NCBI RefSeq assembly: GCF_964222135.1
Contig: NZ_CAXQBR010000101.1
Coordinates: 1 to 49,538 of the forward strand
Direction: 5' to 3'
DNA from: Euzebya sp.
Lineage (GTDB): Bacteria; Actinomycetota; Nitriliruptoria; Euzebyales; Euzebyaceae
Length of the DNA: 49,538 nucleotides
Shown: positions 1,903 to 44,979 of the stretch, piece after piece
Position numbering within the stretch: position 1 is the first letter of the stretch
Layout: each line of letters begins with the position of its first letter
Notes under the pieces: model-generated
Seen by the model: only the letters and a program-made list of their open reading frames with translations
What the model was told of the DNA's origin: nothing
The model's database searches: none
Position numbers and translations under genes: made by a program

Positions 1903-2930
1903 CCGGTGCGCCGGCGTTCCGGCTGACCGACTCGACCCTGCGGGACGGCTCCCACGCCGTCAGCCACCAGTTCACCGCCGAGCAGGTCCGCGGCGTCGTC
2001 GGCGCGCTCGATGCCGCCGGGGTCCCGGTGATCGAGGTCACCCACGGCGACGGGATGGGCGGGTCGTCGTTCACCTACGGGTTCAGCCACACCCCCGAGA
2101 CCGACCTGGTCCGGATCGCGGTCGAGACCGCCACGCGGGCGAAGATCGCCGTGCTGTTCGTGCCCGGCATCGGGGTGAAGGACGACCTCCGCCGCGCCGC
2201 CGAGCTCGGCGTGTCCATCGCGCGGATCGCCACGCACTGCACCGAGGCTGACATCGCGGTCCAGCACCTCGCCCTGACCAAGGAGCTCGGGATGGAGGCC
2301 GTCGGCTTCCTGATGATGGCCCACATGGTCGAGCCGGACGCGCTGGTCGAGCAGGCCAAGGTGATGGAGGCCGCCGGCGCCGACTGCGTCTACGTCGTCG
2401 ACTCGGCGGGCGCGATGACCGTGGACGCGTTCAAGCGGCGGGTCGCCGCGGTCAAGGCCGGGGTCGACGTCGAGGTGGGCGTCCACGCGCACAACAACCT
2501 GTCGCTGGCGGTCGCCAACAGCCTCGGCGCGCTCGCCGAGGGCGCTGACCAGATCGACGGGTGCACCACCGGCCTCGGCGCCGGCGCCGGGAACTGCCCC
2601 ACCGAGGTGCTGGTCGCCACCTGCGACAAGTCGGGCATCGCCACCGGCGTGGACACCTTCGCGATGATGGACGCCGCGCAGGCGCAGGTCCGGCCCCTCC
2701 GGCCCGAGATGGGGGTCATCGACGCCGACGGGCTGATGCTCGGCTACGCCGGGGTGTACGGCTCGTTCCTGCTGCACGCGAAGCGGGCCAGCGAGCGCTA
2801 CGGCGTCCCGACCCGCGACATCCTGGCCGAGCTCGGCCGTCGCGGCATGGTCGGCGGGCAGGAGGACATGATCATCGACGTCGCCCTCGGGCTGCGCCGC
2901 GACCGCGAGACCGCGGGGGCGCCGGCATGA
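1899..2930 (+). CDS. dmpG: 4-hydroxy-2-oxovalerate aldolase (DmpG/MhpE type)
   Basis: 343 aa. It cleaves 4-hydroxy-2-oxovalerate to pyruvate and acetaldehyde and partners DmpF. The N-terminus carries the HMGL-like signature [13 protein letters not shown], in which Asp16 is the expected metal ligand and His19 the expected catalytic residue. Metal-binding His residues occur in [17 protein letters not shown] Gly-rich [14 protein letters not shown] segment and the C-terminal communication domain follow. The same frame is open far upstream, but GTG 1899 is chosen because it overlaps the previous stop, gives the usual length and places the signature at the normal position. The 3' end overlaps the next gene by ATGA. 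Confidence 0.95.
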
Positions 2931-3685
2931 GCGGCGCGGATGCCCTCCCGGCCCGTCTGGCGGAGGCCATCCGGACCCGCACGGCGATCGAGCCGGATGC
3001 CGATGACCTGACCGTGGACGCGGCCTACGACCTGCAGGACGAGCTGATCGGCCTCCTCGGCCGGTCGCCCCGCGCGGCCAAGCTGGGGCTGACCAGCGTC
3101 GCCAAGCAGGAGCAGATGGGCGTCGACGAGCCTGCCCACGGCTGGCTCCTCGAGGGGTCCGAGGTCGAGGTCGGCACCGCGCTGGCCTGCGACGAGCTGA
3201 TCCAGCCGCGGTGCGAGCCGGAGATCGCCCTCCGGGTCGCACAGGAGCTGGCCGGCCCCGACGTGACCGCGAGCGATGTCCTGGCCGCCACCGACGCGGT
3301 CATGCCGGCCATCGACGTGCTGGACAGCCGCTACGCGGGCTATCGCTTCACCCTGCCGGCGGTCGTGGCGGACAACATCTCGGCCGCCCGCTACGCCCTC
3401 GGGGCACCGGTCGGTGTGGCCGGCATCGACCTGCGGCTGCTTGGGTGCGTGCTCGAGGTGGACGGGCGGTTGGTCGCCACGGCGGCCGGCGCGGCGGTGC
3501 TCGACCACCCCGCGGCCGCCGTCGCCTGGTTCGTGCGGTCCCTGCACCGCCGCGGTCGCGCCCTGGCGGCCGGCACGACCGTCCTGGCCGGGGCGCTGAC
3601 CGCCGCGGTCCCGATCGGGCCGGGCAGCGTCGTCCGGGCGACGTTCGACCGCATCGGCGCGGTGGAGCTCCGGTGCGCGCGGTGA
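2927..3685 (+). CDS. 4-oxalocrotonate decarboxylase-like protein, first of two tandem paralogues
   Basis: 252 aa, MhpD/DmpH family. It shows AAKLGLTSVAKQEQMGVDEP, the CEPEIAL metal-binding stretch, VLDSRYAGYRFTLP and VVADNISAARYALG. The VxDSRYxxFxF block is typical of the decarboxylase (DmpH) branch, which converts 2-oxohex-3-enedioate to 2-oxopent-4-enoate. It lies between dmpG and a second, better DmpH match, so it is a tandem paralogue. The N-terminal helix is shorter and lacks the V-G-x-K lead-in (it reads PRAAKLG). Its exact substrate is uncertain; it could handle a substituted analogue or be a structural partner of DmpE. ATG overlaps the dmpG stop. Confidence 0.75.
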   Translation: MSGADALPARLAEAIRTRTAIEPDADDLTVDAAYDLQDELIGLLGRSPRAAKLGLTSVAKQEQMGVDEPAHGWLLEGSEVEVGTALACDELIQPRCEPEIALRVAQELAGPDVTASDVLAATDAVMPAIDVLDSRYAGYRFTLPAVVADNISAARYALGAPVGVAGIDLRLLGCVLEVDGRLVATAAGAAVLDHPAAAVAWFVRSLHRRGRALAAGTTVLAGALTAAVPIGPGSVVRATFDRIGAVELRCAR

Positions 3686-4449
3686 CCCTCGACATCGACG
3701 CGGCCGCCGCCGAGCTGCACCGCGCCCGGCTCGGGCGGACGCCGGTCCGCCCCCTCTCCGAGCGGGTGGGGGCCTGGGACCTCGACGCCGCCTACCGCGT
3801 GCAGGCCGTCGGCATGGCGTTGCGGGAAGCTGATGGCGAGCGGGTCGTCGGCGGCAAGCTCGGCTTCACGTCGGCCGCGATGCGCCGGGCCATGGGGGTC
3901 GCGTCCCCGAACTACGGGTGGCTGACCGACGCGATGTGGCTGCGCGACGGTGTCGTCGCGCTCGACCGGTTCATCCACCCGAAGGTCGAGCCGGAGATCG
4001 CGTTCCTCCTCGGCCGCGATCTCGACGGGGCGGTGGACGTCGAGGCGGTCCTCGTCGCGACCGAGGCGGTGGCGCCGTGCCTCGAGGTCGTCGACAGCCG
4101 CTACGTCGGGTTCCGCTTCGGGGCCCTCGACAACATCGCCGACGACAGCTCGGCCGGTGGGGTGGCGCTGGGCGACCCCGTCCCGCTCGACGACATCGAC
4201 CTCCGCCTGGTCGGCGTCGTCGTCAGCGACGGCGACGAGGTCGTCCACACCGCCGCGGGCGCGGCGGCCCACGGCCACCCGGCCGCCGCCGTCGCCTGGA
4301 TGGCCGGCGCGGCCGACCAGCCGCTCCGTGCGGGTATGTGGGTGATCTCCGGCGGGCTGACCGGGCCGGTCGACCTGACTCCCGGCGCGGTGGTGACCGC
4401 AGAGTTCGACCGGCTCGGGACCGTCCGGGTCGCTGCTGAGGAGGGCTGA
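3682..4449 (+). CDS. dmpH: 2-oxo-3-hexenedioate (4-oxalocrotonate) decarboxylase, DmpH type
   Basis: 255 aa. Motifs in order: RVVGGKLGFTSAAMRRAMGV, YGWLTDAM, FIHPKVEPEIAFLL (metal-binding acidic pair), EVVDSRYVGFRFGALDNIAD and SSAGGVALG. The FIHPKVEPEIAF block is a close match to DmpH/XylI proteins. The start was chosen at GTG 3682 because it overlaps the upstream stop as GTGA; GTG 3673 would add three residues. It should decarboxylate the 2-oxo-3-hexenedioate produced by the tautomerase encoded immediately downstream, normally in complex with the DmpE hydratase. Confidence 0.8.
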   Translation: MTLDIDAAAAELHRARLGRTPVRPLSERVGAWDLDAAYRVQAVGMALREADGERVVGGKLGFTSAAMRRAMGVASPNYGWLTDAMWLRDGVVALDRFIHPKVEPEIAFLLGRDLDGAVDVEAVLVATEAVAPCLEVVDSRYVGFRFGALDNIADDSSAGGVALGDPVPLDDIDLRLVGVVVSDGDEVVHTAAGAAAHGHPAAAVAWMAGAADQPLRAGMWVISGGLTGPVDLTPGAVVTAEFDRLGTVRVAAEEG

Positions 4450-5067: not shown

Positions 5068-5828
5068 GCGCGGACGGGGGGTGGGCCGTGGTCGTGGGCG
5101 CGACCGGTTCGCTCGGCTCGGCGATCACCCACCGGCTCGTCGACGCGGGCCTGGCGGTCCTCGCGGTCGCGCGCGACCGGGACCGGCTGGAGGACCTCCG
5201 GCGCGCGGCCGCGCACCCCGACCGGGTGCGGCTCTGCGTCGCCGACATCGCCGACAACGCCGCCGTCGAGGCGATCCGCTCCGCGCTAGGGGGACGCGTG
5301 CGCATGGCCGTGCTGTGCGCCGGCCTGCCCGTGAAGGGGTCGGTCGAGACGATCGACCCGGACCTGCTGGCCGTCGGCGCGCAGGTGAAGATGGCCGGCG
5401 TGGTCCGGCTGCTGCACGCGGTTCGCGACCACATGGGACGCGGGTCACGGTTCGTGGCGGTTGCCGGCACCCTCGGCCTCGAGCCCGGCCGGGACGAGGC
5501 CGGTCCAGGCGGCATCAACGCCGGGATGATCAACCTGGTGAAGCAGATCGCGAACAACCACGGTGCGGACGGGATCACGGTCCACACCGTGGTGCCCGGG
5601 CCGATGGACACCCCGCGCCTGCGGAGGATCGCGGCCACGATCGCCGCCGAGCGGGGCCTGCCGGAGGCCGACGTGTGGGCGGAGTACGAGGCGAAGGTCC
5701 CCCTCGGCCGGCTCCCCCGCGTCGAGGAGGCCGCCTGGGCCGTCGAGGTGCTGCTCGCCCCCGAGGCAGACATCCTCCACGGCACGGTCCTGCACCTGGA
5801 CGCCGGCGGTCTGCGGGCCCCGACGTAG
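5064..5828 (+). CDS. short-chain dehydrogenase/reductase-like protein with a degenerate active site
   Basis: 254 aa, last gene of the operon; GTG overlaps the ferredoxin stop. The nucleotide-binding motif VVGATGSLGSAITHRLVDAG (about 9-28) and the NAG-equivalent VLCAGLP are present, and the C-terminal GTVLHLDAGG is typical of classical SDRs. The catalytic Ser/Tyr/Lys positions are not: the strand normally ending in Ser reads FVAVAGTLG, and the YxxxK position aligns by eye to PGGIN. Fold and cofactor binding therefore look intact while ordinary SDR chemistry is doubtful. It may bind a pathway intermediate, use other residues, or be regulatory. Confidence 0.75.
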   Translation: MSADGGWAVVVGATGSLGSAITHRLVDAGLAVLAVARDRDRLEDLRRAAAHPDRVRLCVADIADNAAVEAIRSALGGRVRMAVLCAGLPVKGSVETIDPDLLAVGAQVKMAGVVRLLHAVRDHMGRGSRFVAVAGTLGLEPGRDEAGPGGINAGMINLVKQIANNHGADGITVHTVVPGPMDTPRLRRIAATIAAERGLPEADVWAEYEAKVPLGRLPRVEEAAWAVEVLLAPEADILHGTVLHLDAGGLRAPT

Positions 5829-14426: not shown

Positions 14427-15440
14427 TCAGCCGTCCAGGACGGCCATCGAGTCGGCGGGGTACCGGTCGCCGGCGGCGATGCCGATCGGCGCGATGCGGT
14501 CGAGGGCGGCCAGGTCGTCGTCGGTCAGCTCGACGTCGAGGGCGGCGACGTTCTCCGCGATCCGTTCGGGCCGGGTGGTGCCGGGGATCGGCACGATCGG
14601 GTGGTCGTGGACCCGGCCCTGGGCGAGCACCCAGGCGAGGGCGAGCTGGGCGGGCGTCACGCCCTTGTCGTCCGCCATCGCGGTCACGCCGTCGACGAGC
14701 TGCAGGTTCCGCTCGAGGTTCTCGCCCTGGAAGCGCGGGTTGTGGCGGCGCCAGTCGTCCTCGGCCAGGTCCTCCGGGCGGGTGATCGCACCGGTCAGGA
14801 ACCCGCGGCCGAGGGGCGAGTAGGCGACCAGGCCGATGCCGAGCTCGCGGAGGGTCGGGAGGACCTCCTCCTCGATGTCGCGGGTCCACAGCGAGTACTC
14901 GGTCTGGACCGCGGTGATCGGGTGGGTGGCGTGGGCTCGCCGGATCGTCGCGGCGCTGGCCTCGGACAGGCCGATGTGGCGGACCTTGCCGGCCTGCACG
15001 AGCTCTGCCATCGCGCCCACGGTCTCCTCGATGGGGACCTGCGGGTCGACGCGGTGGAGGTAGTAGAGGTCGATGACGTCGATGCCGAGCCGGGCGAGGG
15101 ACGCGTCGCAGGCCCGCTTGGCGTAGTCCGGTCGGCCGTCGGGGGCGCGGCCCTGGACCTCGAGGGAGAAGCCCCCGAACTTCGTGGCGACCTCGACGGC
15201 ACCGCGGTGCTCGGCGAGCCAGCCGCCCAGCAGCTCCTCGTTGGTCCGGGGGCCGTAGATGTCGGCGGAGTCGAGCAGGGTGATGCCGGCGTCCAGCGCG
15301 GCGTCGAGGGTGGCGAGGCTCCGGTCGCGCTCGGCGCCGTCGCCCCGGAGGGACGCAGTGTCCTTGTAGGCGAACGTCATGCCCATGCAGCCGAGCCCGA
15401 GGGCCGAGGTGGTCAGGTCTCCGATGGTGGTGCGTCGCAT
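14427..15440 (-). CDS. aldo/keto reductase
   Basis: 337 aa, AKR13-like by general pattern. The catalytic tetrad is visible: Asp and Tyr in [19 protein letters not shown], Lys in VATKFGG and His in [16 protein letters not shown]. The C-terminal [17 protein letters not shown] binds NADPH phosphate. The family reduces aldehydes and ketones in the cytoplasm. ATG 15440 (MRRTTIGDL) is preferred to in-frame ATGs 9 and 33 nt upstream because the conserved first strand begins there. It is divergent from a LysR remnant that may once have regulated it. Confidence 0.9.
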
Positions 15441-22827: not shown

Positions 22828-23664
22828 TCACAGGATCACCCGGGCGGCGGCCGCGCCGAGGGAGCCGGGGACGGCGAGGACGACGACCTGCAGGACGACC
22901 GTGCTGAGGGGGACGGCGTCGGTCCGCCCGAACACCCACAGCAGGTAGGCGCTGATCGCGCAGGCGACCGCGTAGCCCACCACGGTGTAGCCGACGAACG
23001 TCGACCAGCCCGGGGCGTCGGCGCGGTGCTGGCCGGCGAAGCCCAGCAGGTAGACCACGGCGTGCATGCCCGCCAACGATGCGGCCATCAGGACCAGCGC
23101 GCGCGGATCGGCCACCCGAGCGGCGATCAGGACGACCTCCTCGGTCGGCGCGATCGAGACGTTCAGGCTGAGGGCGCCGACGGCCATCAGCAGCACCTCG
23201 TAGCCGTACCCGGTGGTGCCGCCCGAGGCCCCCGGCCCGTGCACGAAGTGGCTGCGGGCGATGGCGGCGCCGACGCTGGTCGGGACGGACTGGACGGCGA
23301 CGAGGGCCAGCCACTCCGCCGGCGTCCGCGCGCTGTCGGTCACCCCGAGGAGGGTCAGCACCACCACCGACGTGAGGGCGCCGACCCCGTAGGCGACCAG
23401 CGCGTCCGCGATCACGTCGCGGAGCGGCAGGCCGCGCTCGTCGCGGAAGCCGAGGTAGCGGACCAGCACCACCAGGGCGGGCAGTGCGAGGGCGACGAAC
23501 ACGACGAGGCGCCACGGCGACAGGGTCAGCGCCAGATCCCACATCTCGAGCGTCATCAGCAGCGGGAGCCCGAGGATCAGCGCGCCGGCGACCGCGCGCG
23601 CCACACCGAGCCCCAGCTCTCGTGCACCGGGGGGCTGGACGTGCGGCTGGTCGGCGGCGCTCAC
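22828..23664 (-). CDS. TIGR02587-like polytopic membrane protein
   Basis: 278 aa with about seven or eight helices. Segments ARAVAGALILGLPLLMTLEM, the loop SIAPTEEVVLIAAR and the C-terminal AVPGSLGAAAARVIL fit the TIGR02587 integral membrane family, of unknown function. GTG 23664 gives the usual start before the first helix; the frame is open further upstream but enters repetitive intergenic DNA. It is the first gene of a two-gene unit with the TIGR02588-like gene 46 bp downstream, and the repeat array lies upstream of it. Confidence 0.7.
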   Translation of the reverse strand: MSAADQPHVQPPGARELGLGVARAVAGALILGLPLLMTLEMWDLALTLSPWRLVVFVALALPALVVLVRYLGFRDERGLPLRDVIADALVAYGVGALTSVVVLTLLGVTDSARTPAEWLALVAVQSVPTSVGAAIARSHFVHGPGASGGTTGYGYEVLLMAVGALSLNVSIAPTEEVVLIAARVADPRALVLMAASLAGMHAVVYLLGFAGQHRADAPGWSTFVGYTVVGYAVACAISAYLLWVFGRTDAVPLSTVVLQVVVLAVPGSLGAAAARVIL

Positions 23665-23734: not shown

Positions 23735-23926
23735 CACGGATCGACTCCGCGCTCCCACCGATCGACTCCGCGCCAGCGCGGCGCAGGCCGCTGAGCAGGG
23801 ACGACGCCCACGGATCTGTCGACCCGGTCCCCGCGCACCCCGTCTCCGGAGTCGATCCGTGCCCTGAGGGGCGTGTGACCGGAGTCGATCCGTGCCCAGG
23901 GGGGCGTGCGTCAGGAGTCGGGTCCT
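23735..23926. repeat. intergenic array A of the 15-bp repeat CACGGATCGACTCCG
   Basis: Within the 264-bp gap between the GT2 gene and the TIGR02587-like gene. Direct copies at 23735-23749 and 23756-23770 (the second has one change, CACC for CACG), 21 bp apart. Inverted copies CGGAGTCGATCCGTG at 23847-23861 and 23880-23894, 33 bp apart. Degenerate relatives lie near 23809-23826 and 23911-23926. The core CGGATCGACTCCG is itself an imperfect dyad (CGGA/TCCG around TCGA). No gene is apparent in the gap. Spacings near whole helical turns suggest protein binding. Confidence 0.8.
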
Positions 23927-23928
23927 GC

Positions 23929-24648
23929 TCACGACGCCGTGCACCGGGCGGGCGGCGCCGGTCCGCCGCGCTGCAGACCGCCGAGGTAGCCGTGGAAGCC
24001 GCCGGGTGCCCGCGCGCGCACCCGCGCGCTGGTGCGCACCGTCAACCCGGGCCGGTGCGCCCGCGGACGGCCGGTGAGGCCGAGCACGTCCCAGAGGGCC
24101 TGGTCCTCGCCGACAGCCAGGTCGGGGACGCCGCCCGCCTCGGCGAGGGCATCGGCGCGGATCGCCAGGTTCGTGCCGTAGACCTCCGGGCCGCGGGACG
24201 GTCGCTGCCGCCAGGCGTGGGCCACGGCGGGTGGGCGGAGGTGGGCGTCGATCAACTCGATCCCGCCGGCGACCACGTGCGCCCCCTCGCCGGCCACGCG
24301 CAGGTGGTCGACCAGCCAGCAGCGGGGCACCGCGCTGTCGGCGTCGCAGAACACCAGCCACGGGTGTGCTCGCGCACGCTCGAGCGCCGCGCGGGCCCCG
24401 GCCTGCCGCGCACGGCCGACCCGCCGCGCGTCGACCTCGATGACCACGTCGTCGGCGGCGGCCAGACGGGTCGCGATGTCACCGCTCGCATCACGGCAGT
24501 CGTCGAGCACGGTCACGACGCGCACGGTCGTGCCCGCCCGCCGCACCGGCGCGGCGGCGCGCGCGACGGAGCGGAGGCAGCGGTCGAGCAGGTCCTCCTC
24601 GTCGTGCACCGGGACGACGACGGCGACCTCGCGGGGGTGGGCGTTCAC
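23929..24648 (-). CDS. glycosyltransferase family 2
   Basis: 239 aa GT-A fold enzyme. The nucleotide-binding start VAVVVPVHDEEDLLDRCLRS (8-27), the metal-binding DADS after WLVFC, and GTNLAIRADALAEAGGVPDL with downstream GEDQALWDVL (ED catalytic-base region) are all present. It transfers a sugar from a nucleotide donor to an unknown acceptor. It is the last gene of a four-gene cassette; ATG overlaps the methyltransferase stop by 4 nt. Confidence 0.88.
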   Translation of the reverse strand: MNAHPREVAVVVPVHDEEDLLDRCLRSVARAAAPVRRAGTTVRVVTVLDDCRDASGDIATRLAAADDVVIEVDARRVGRARQAGARAALERARAHPWLVFCDADSAVPRCWLVDHLRVAGEGAHVVAGGIELIDAHLRPPAVAHAWRQRPSRGPEVYGTNLAIRADALAEAGGVPDLAVGEDQALWDVLGLTGRPRAHRPGLTVRTSARVRARAPGGFHGYLGGLQRGGPAPPARCTAS

Positions 24649-44853: not shown

Positions 44854-44979
44854 CACGGATCGACTCCGCAGGCGCACGGATCGACTCCGAGCACGCGTCT
44901 CGAGCGCACCGATCCGGAGGACCGGGTGACGGATCAGCACGAGGTTGCCGTCGTGGCACGACCTCGGAGTCGATCCGTG
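44854..44979. repeat. intergenic array B of the 15-bp repeat CACGGATCGACTCCG
   Basis: Within the 319-bp gene-free gap 44760-45078. Perfect direct copies at 44854-44868 and 44875-44889, 21 bp apart as in array A, and a perfect inverted copy CGGAGTCGATCCGTG at 44965-44979. Degenerate relatives lie near 44906-44919 and 44927-44938. As in array A, the direct copies come first and the inverted copy is nearest the downstream gene, here amn. The rest of the gap holds the upstream terminator and a G-rich tract. Confidence 0.8.

Follow-up and report, generated by a model that had tools for sequence, protein, structure and literature searches.

In REP/BIME elements the unit site forms an imperfect palindrome whose 5' end is usually GTAG or GTGG, and transposon ends of the Tn7 and Mu kind can have tandem sites spaced by about 22 bp. 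BIMEs and REPs are bound by IHF, gyrase and Pol I, and they assist termination by Rho (PMC2817692). A REPIN consists of an inverted pair of conserved ~16-mers that are a fixed distance apart and enclose a spacer of lower conservation; clusters of REPINs exist, and the unit behaves as a whole (PMC3116915).

The locus described here, array A, lies in a window of 49,538 nucleotides (the whole stretch of DNA that was analysed) from a Euzebya draft genome of 5.06 Mb in 111 contigs, G000. Array A belongs to a family of interspersed elements, about 130 bases long, that occurs throughout the genus in intergenic DNA and has not been named before. The arrays have no match in Rfam at the gathering score, and no paper on Euzebya repeats was found in the literature collection searched. 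The same window contains a second unit of the same class, array B. The features of both are listed below; R2 is one of two sequence-only models, R1 and R2, of two classes of the element, and the E-values of both models are rough.

23735..23861, plus strand: the 127-bp basic unit of array A, with its four sites and the core, found by R2 with an E-value of 1.4e-23 (array A is in the R2 training set)
23735..23749, plus strand: array A site a, CACGGATCGACTCCG, exact
23756..23770, plus strand: array A site b, CACCGATCGACTCCG, one mismatch; a to b 21 bp
23792..23799, plus strand: array A core, TGAGCAGG; family consensus TGACCTGC/G
23809..23819, plus strand: array A site c, CACGGATCTGT, a degenerate copy; form in the family CACGGATGTGCAC
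23847..23861, minus strand: array A site d, exact, inverted; a to d 112 bp
23880..23894, minus strand: array A extra outer inverted copy, exact, 33 bp outside d
44854..44979, plus strand: array B, second unit
44854..44868, plus strand: array B site a, exact
44875..44889, plus strand: array B site b, exact; a to b 21 bp
44928..44938, plus strand: array B site c, GACGGATCAGC, degenerate
44965..44979, minus strand: array B site d, exact, inverted

A sequence-only reading of this stretch had described array A as a 15-mer present in two direct and two inverted copies, without mention of a second array. Both inverted copies and the direct copy at 23735 are exact, but the direct copy at 23756 has one mismatch. 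The 21-bp direct and 33-bp inverted spacings and the order of direct and then inverted copies along the minus strand were described correctly, as was the gene-free gap; a degenerate copy, site c, lies between the direct and the inverted copies. This gap lies between two minus-strand genes, a glycosyltransferase gene that ends at 23929 and a DUF2391 gene that starts near 23604; array A is 34 bp past the stop codon of the former and about 130 bp ahead of the latter. The imperfect dyad that was seen in the core of the 15-mer amounts to a three-base GGA/TCC pair; it is weak, and we do not count it as real. Elsewhere in the window, a tRNA-Met (2883-2966) and a tRNA-Leu (14492-14584) called by ARAGORN overlap protein-coding calls and may be false.

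In the window alone, 10 occurrences of CACGGATCGACTCCG with three or fewer mismatches were found against 7.9 expected, which is not unusual; the significance of the motif comes from its exact copies, their clustering and the whole-genome counts, and not from the window count alone. G000 has 35 exact copies, and the genome-wide search with two or fewer mismatches that the earlier reading had proposed gave 111 matches (58 + 53) versus four (2 + 2) for the backwards control. These copies form about 16 intergenic arrays, A and B included, which we refer to as class I, and about 18 further G000 arrays belong to a sister class, class II, with CACGGATCGACCAC as its site. The copies lie between genes, and other loci keep the same spacing and orientation; the outcome that the earlier reading had named as refuting, copies scattered in coding sequence at chance level or without conserved arrangement, was thus not observed. 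Several CTCAGATCTGAG-like copies are also present between genes in G000 (L233 17940-18100), possibly a further class.

The units are 127 bp long in G000 and about 132-143 bp in its congeners, and they contain four asymmetric sites of 15-18 bp in a fixed order. In class I, site a (+0) is followed by b (+21), the core (+57), the degenerate c (+74) and the inverted d (+112); a and d form terminal inverted repeats of 15 bp. In class II the unit is the same, but b has been lost and c is retained. All arrays have plus copies first and then minus copies, and in some of them further copies at 23-75 bp form an outer shell, in most cases close to whole helical turns; outer copies of the same class stay in helical phase with the inner unit. 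The site spacings are whole helical turns, as the spacings in array A had suggested earlier. For example, the best period of the same-strand site distances is 10.75 bp (R 0.89) in class I and 10.5 bp (R 0.93) in the congeners, the two classes with the best sampling, and 10.95 bp for the 12 distances of class II, and the distinct site distances pooled give an R of 0.69 versus 0.58 at the 99.9% level of the null. Furthermore, the b-c distance in the congeners is either 53 or 64 bp, a difference of one helical turn. This one-turn difference and the helical phasing are the best evidence that the units would work as protein-bound double-stranded DNA.

The Euzebya arrays resemble the BIMEs of enterobacteria in that they are intergenic and dispersed, with conserved sites in both orientations, unrelated sequence between them and hybrid forms. 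Unlike the REP/BIME site, however, CACGGATCGACTCCG has no palindrome, stem-loop or GTAG, the four sites have a single, helically phased order, and there are some tens of arrays per genome as opposed to hundreds of BIMEs. They are like REPINs in having inverted conserved sites at a fixed distance, a poorly conserved spacer and a unit that acts as a whole. They differ in the terminal distance (112-117 or 128 bp versus 71 bp) and in the addition of two internal sites and a core; pairing has no clear covariation support in the few pairs that vary. A search for RAYT/Y1_Tnp (PF01797) detected the positive controls and gave no match in the four Euzebya genomes. Because palindromic sites and a RAYT are both defining features, and neither was found, the Euzebya units are not members of the BIME/REPIN group.

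The setting of the arrays was determined with our own codon-bias gene caller. All 34 of the G000 arrays are intergenic or, in a few cases, extend slightly into gene ends (30 bp at most), with one exception, a class II array that overlaps a low-scoring gene call. Convergent gene pairs flank 16 of 31 arrays in G000 and six of 25 in the congeners, together 22 of 56 versus 117 of 672 control pairs; the excess comes from G000 alone, since the congeners have none. Many of the units lie directly past stop codons and fill the convergent gaps, and eight of the 56 are flanked by divergent pairs. Reading inwards, the flanks of the units are C-rich on both sides regardless of gene orientation (mean skew of 0.24 and 0.35 versus 0.04 and -0.05 in the controls), and this skew of C over G is equally strong by gene starts and gene ends. 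The flanking genes are unrelated and include those for IMP dehydrogenase, UppS, RpiB, SerA, kynureninase, ABC transporters and a chemoreceptor, among others.

The genus comparison covered four Euzebya species, G000, E. pacifica (G001), G002 and G003, which share the site geometry and differ in the site letters. E. pacifica and G002 have GGATGGAATCGMCTC units with a geometry of 0/22/75/117, and additional units with TGACGGATCTTGACCCA, TGACGGAATCGTCCCCAC or CGACGGAATCGCCTCG in which the geometry is unchanged; G003 has a single unit with other letters, GGTCGTTCCGCCTCC (L263). The two models recognize arrays across these groups, R1 finding class I arrays (E 9.7e-6) and R2 finding congener arrays (E 3.1e-5), and this cross-recognition suggests that the classes are probably one superfamily. 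In a search of 66 genomes of the class Nitriliruptoria, R1 and R2 gave strong matches in G000, E. pacifica and G002 only; the matches in other genera all had E-values above 1e-4, and seven such loci that were examined lack the geometry. Likewise, when 84,980 species were scanned for exact inverted pairs, nothing was found outside G000. As a sequence control we use only shuffled DNA, with one cluster in 702 kb; reversed sequence is unfit as a control because reversal keeps the repeat geometry.

Other intergenic repeats are present in these genomes. E. pacifica has a different family, GGTCGACTGGNNCGACACGCC, with a 50-bp period (L073 2616-2780 and L068 3219-3297), located downstream of the IMP dehydrogenase gene and another gene; the G000 counterparts carry arrays at these places. 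G003 has an intergenic CGACTCTCGGTACAC array in both orientations with unrelated letters (L206 16880-17060).

The presence, absence and identity of units at orthologous places show that whole units come and go. For eight of 14 E. pacifica loci, G002 has a unit of the same class at the orthologous place. In six aligned E. pacifica/G002 pairs the sites, which were defined in one species only, are 90% identical and the spacers 59% identical. Non-orthologous spacers are about 57% identical by a similar alignment, and so the spacers are nearly saturated; the difference between sites and spacers indicates that the sites are kept by selection. Four loci are empty in the sister species (L087/L111, L078/L114, L104/L117 and L108/L118), with intergenic flanks too diverged for any target-site duplication to be read. 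Four other aligned pairs have a unit of other letters at the same place and in the same orientation. The spacers of these switched pairs have no similarity (0.51-0.52 versus a null of 0.57), which makes replacement of the whole unit more likely than a change of letters in place at all four sites, an alternative that was also considered. In one of these pairs, L099/L116 (CGACGGAATCGCCTCG), the other letters may have arisen from the main class by drift. The polyphosphate kinase locus has a class II unit in G000 and other letters in E. pacifica, and L100, like its orthologue L088, has units of two different classes, one nested inside the other. An apparent inversion of a unit between congeners (L086/L106) was rejected, as the flanking genes show that the loci are not orthologous.

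Two further observations concern the E. pacifica loci. The nested array at L088 (near 1.957 Mb) contains a transposase gene at 2898-4130 that is absent from the sister locus L100. From the protein itself we take it to be of the IS256 type, and identical copies of this IS elsewhere in the E. pacifica genome mark it as a separate IS. At L078, tandem 25-bp repeats (CCTCAGGCGCCTTCGGCGCTCTACA, 5482-5581) adjoin the array, and the sister species has neither.

On balance, and with slightly better than even confidence, we predict that the element is a BIME/REPIN-like interspersed element that serves as a phased multi-site platform for a putative DNA-binding protein, may form a protein boundary and may spread by a non-RAYT route. 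Judging from the phasing and the site conservation, each site would be bound by a sequence-specific protein. Helical phasing would align the bound protein copies along a single face of the helix, where they could interact and fold both arms round the core. With less confidence, such a nucleoprotein complex might then act as a BIME-like boundary, through termination, supercoiling or a roadblock, often at the 3' ends of genes, a role at which the position of the arrays and their C-rich flanks hint. With the same lower confidence, the empty, nested and replaced units suggest that some enzyme other than a RAYT could spread them. Against this reading we count the origin of the convergent excess in G000, the flanks too diverged for a target-site duplication to be read, and the letters themselves: identical letters within a class, and different letters in a co-resident class, need several binders or a spreading process, and neither was found among the four species compared. 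A related idea, which we consider distinctly unlikely, has the host maintaining a new class of chromosomal nucleoprotein site whose geometry is conserved and whose letters are replaceable, with coexisting classes that each have their own binder and a whole-unit class switch that leaves position and orientation constant. Of the sequence-only reading, the spacing by helical turns, the ordering of direct and inverted copies and the suggestion of a small non-autonomous repeat or protein-bound site all hold up, and its overall interpretation of array A is partly supported.

The empty sites in the sister species, the replacement of whole units without spacer similarity and the nesting at L088/L100 would all be expected of a purely selfish miniature element. 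In such an element a and d would serve as the terminal inverted repeats and b and c as transposase sites in the interior, a DDE or other transposase would be the mover, and the sites would be conserved only because the spread was recent. Terminal inverted sites, internal sites about 22 bp apart as in Tn7/Mu-kind ends, and gain and loss as a whole are likenesses to MITEs and such end arrays. However, the orthologous sites have stayed conserved long after insertion, unlike those of MITEs, the same-class outer copies hold their phase with the inner unit, and the Y1 transposase is absent as noted above. Moreover, all of the motif copies inspected in the complete E. pacifica genome (one or no mismatch) are in short arrays, none of them flanks its own transposase gene and none belongs to an autonomous relative with the same ends; we regard this explanation as rather unlikely. 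A bidirectional terminator, in which Rho loads at the inward C-rich flanks of either side and the array with its bound protein forms the roadblock that ends transcription of both neighbours, is tentative and seems to us rather improbable. It would account for the skew on both sides, for the many units just past stop codons in convergent gaps and for array A itself, in which a scan found neither an intrinsic terminator nor a sigma-70-like promoter. Beside gene starts, though, the skew is equally strong, some units lie between divergent genes and the congeners have no convergent excess.

Repeated short sites in helical phase are also found in clustered operator and nucleoid-protein sites such as parS and DnaA boxes, and multiple phased sites resemble operator arrays. 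The Euzebya arrays differ in being chromosome-wide at unrelated genes, with an asymmetric site and several letter classes. An operator of one regulon, proposed earlier, is very unlikely: the unrelated, housekeeping nature of the flanking genes gives a regulon no support, few arrays lie between divergent genes and convergent pairs are the commonest setting in G000. The earlier suggestion of a partition site is not supported either, as copies are dispersed over the E. pacifica chromosome and do not clearly gather near the origin (Rayleigh test, p 0.28 with the main class alone and 0.04 with a second class added). The long inverted repeats can pair, and so a structured RNA with a-d or c-d stems was considered, but the covariation score was reached by 36 of 500 shuffles for c-d and 249 of 500 for a-d, few pairs vary, the numbers of plus and minus sites are unequal in many arrays and, again, Rfam has no match; this explanation is extremely improbable.

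In conclusion, if the prediction of a phased platform with its putative binder is true, a lineage without REP transposases would have its own BIME-like elements, in which phased protein sites replace the palindromes. The near-identical natural copies, the classes with differing letters and the species pairs with filled, empty or replaced loci would make the binder, the role at gene ends and the mobility of these elements directly testable.
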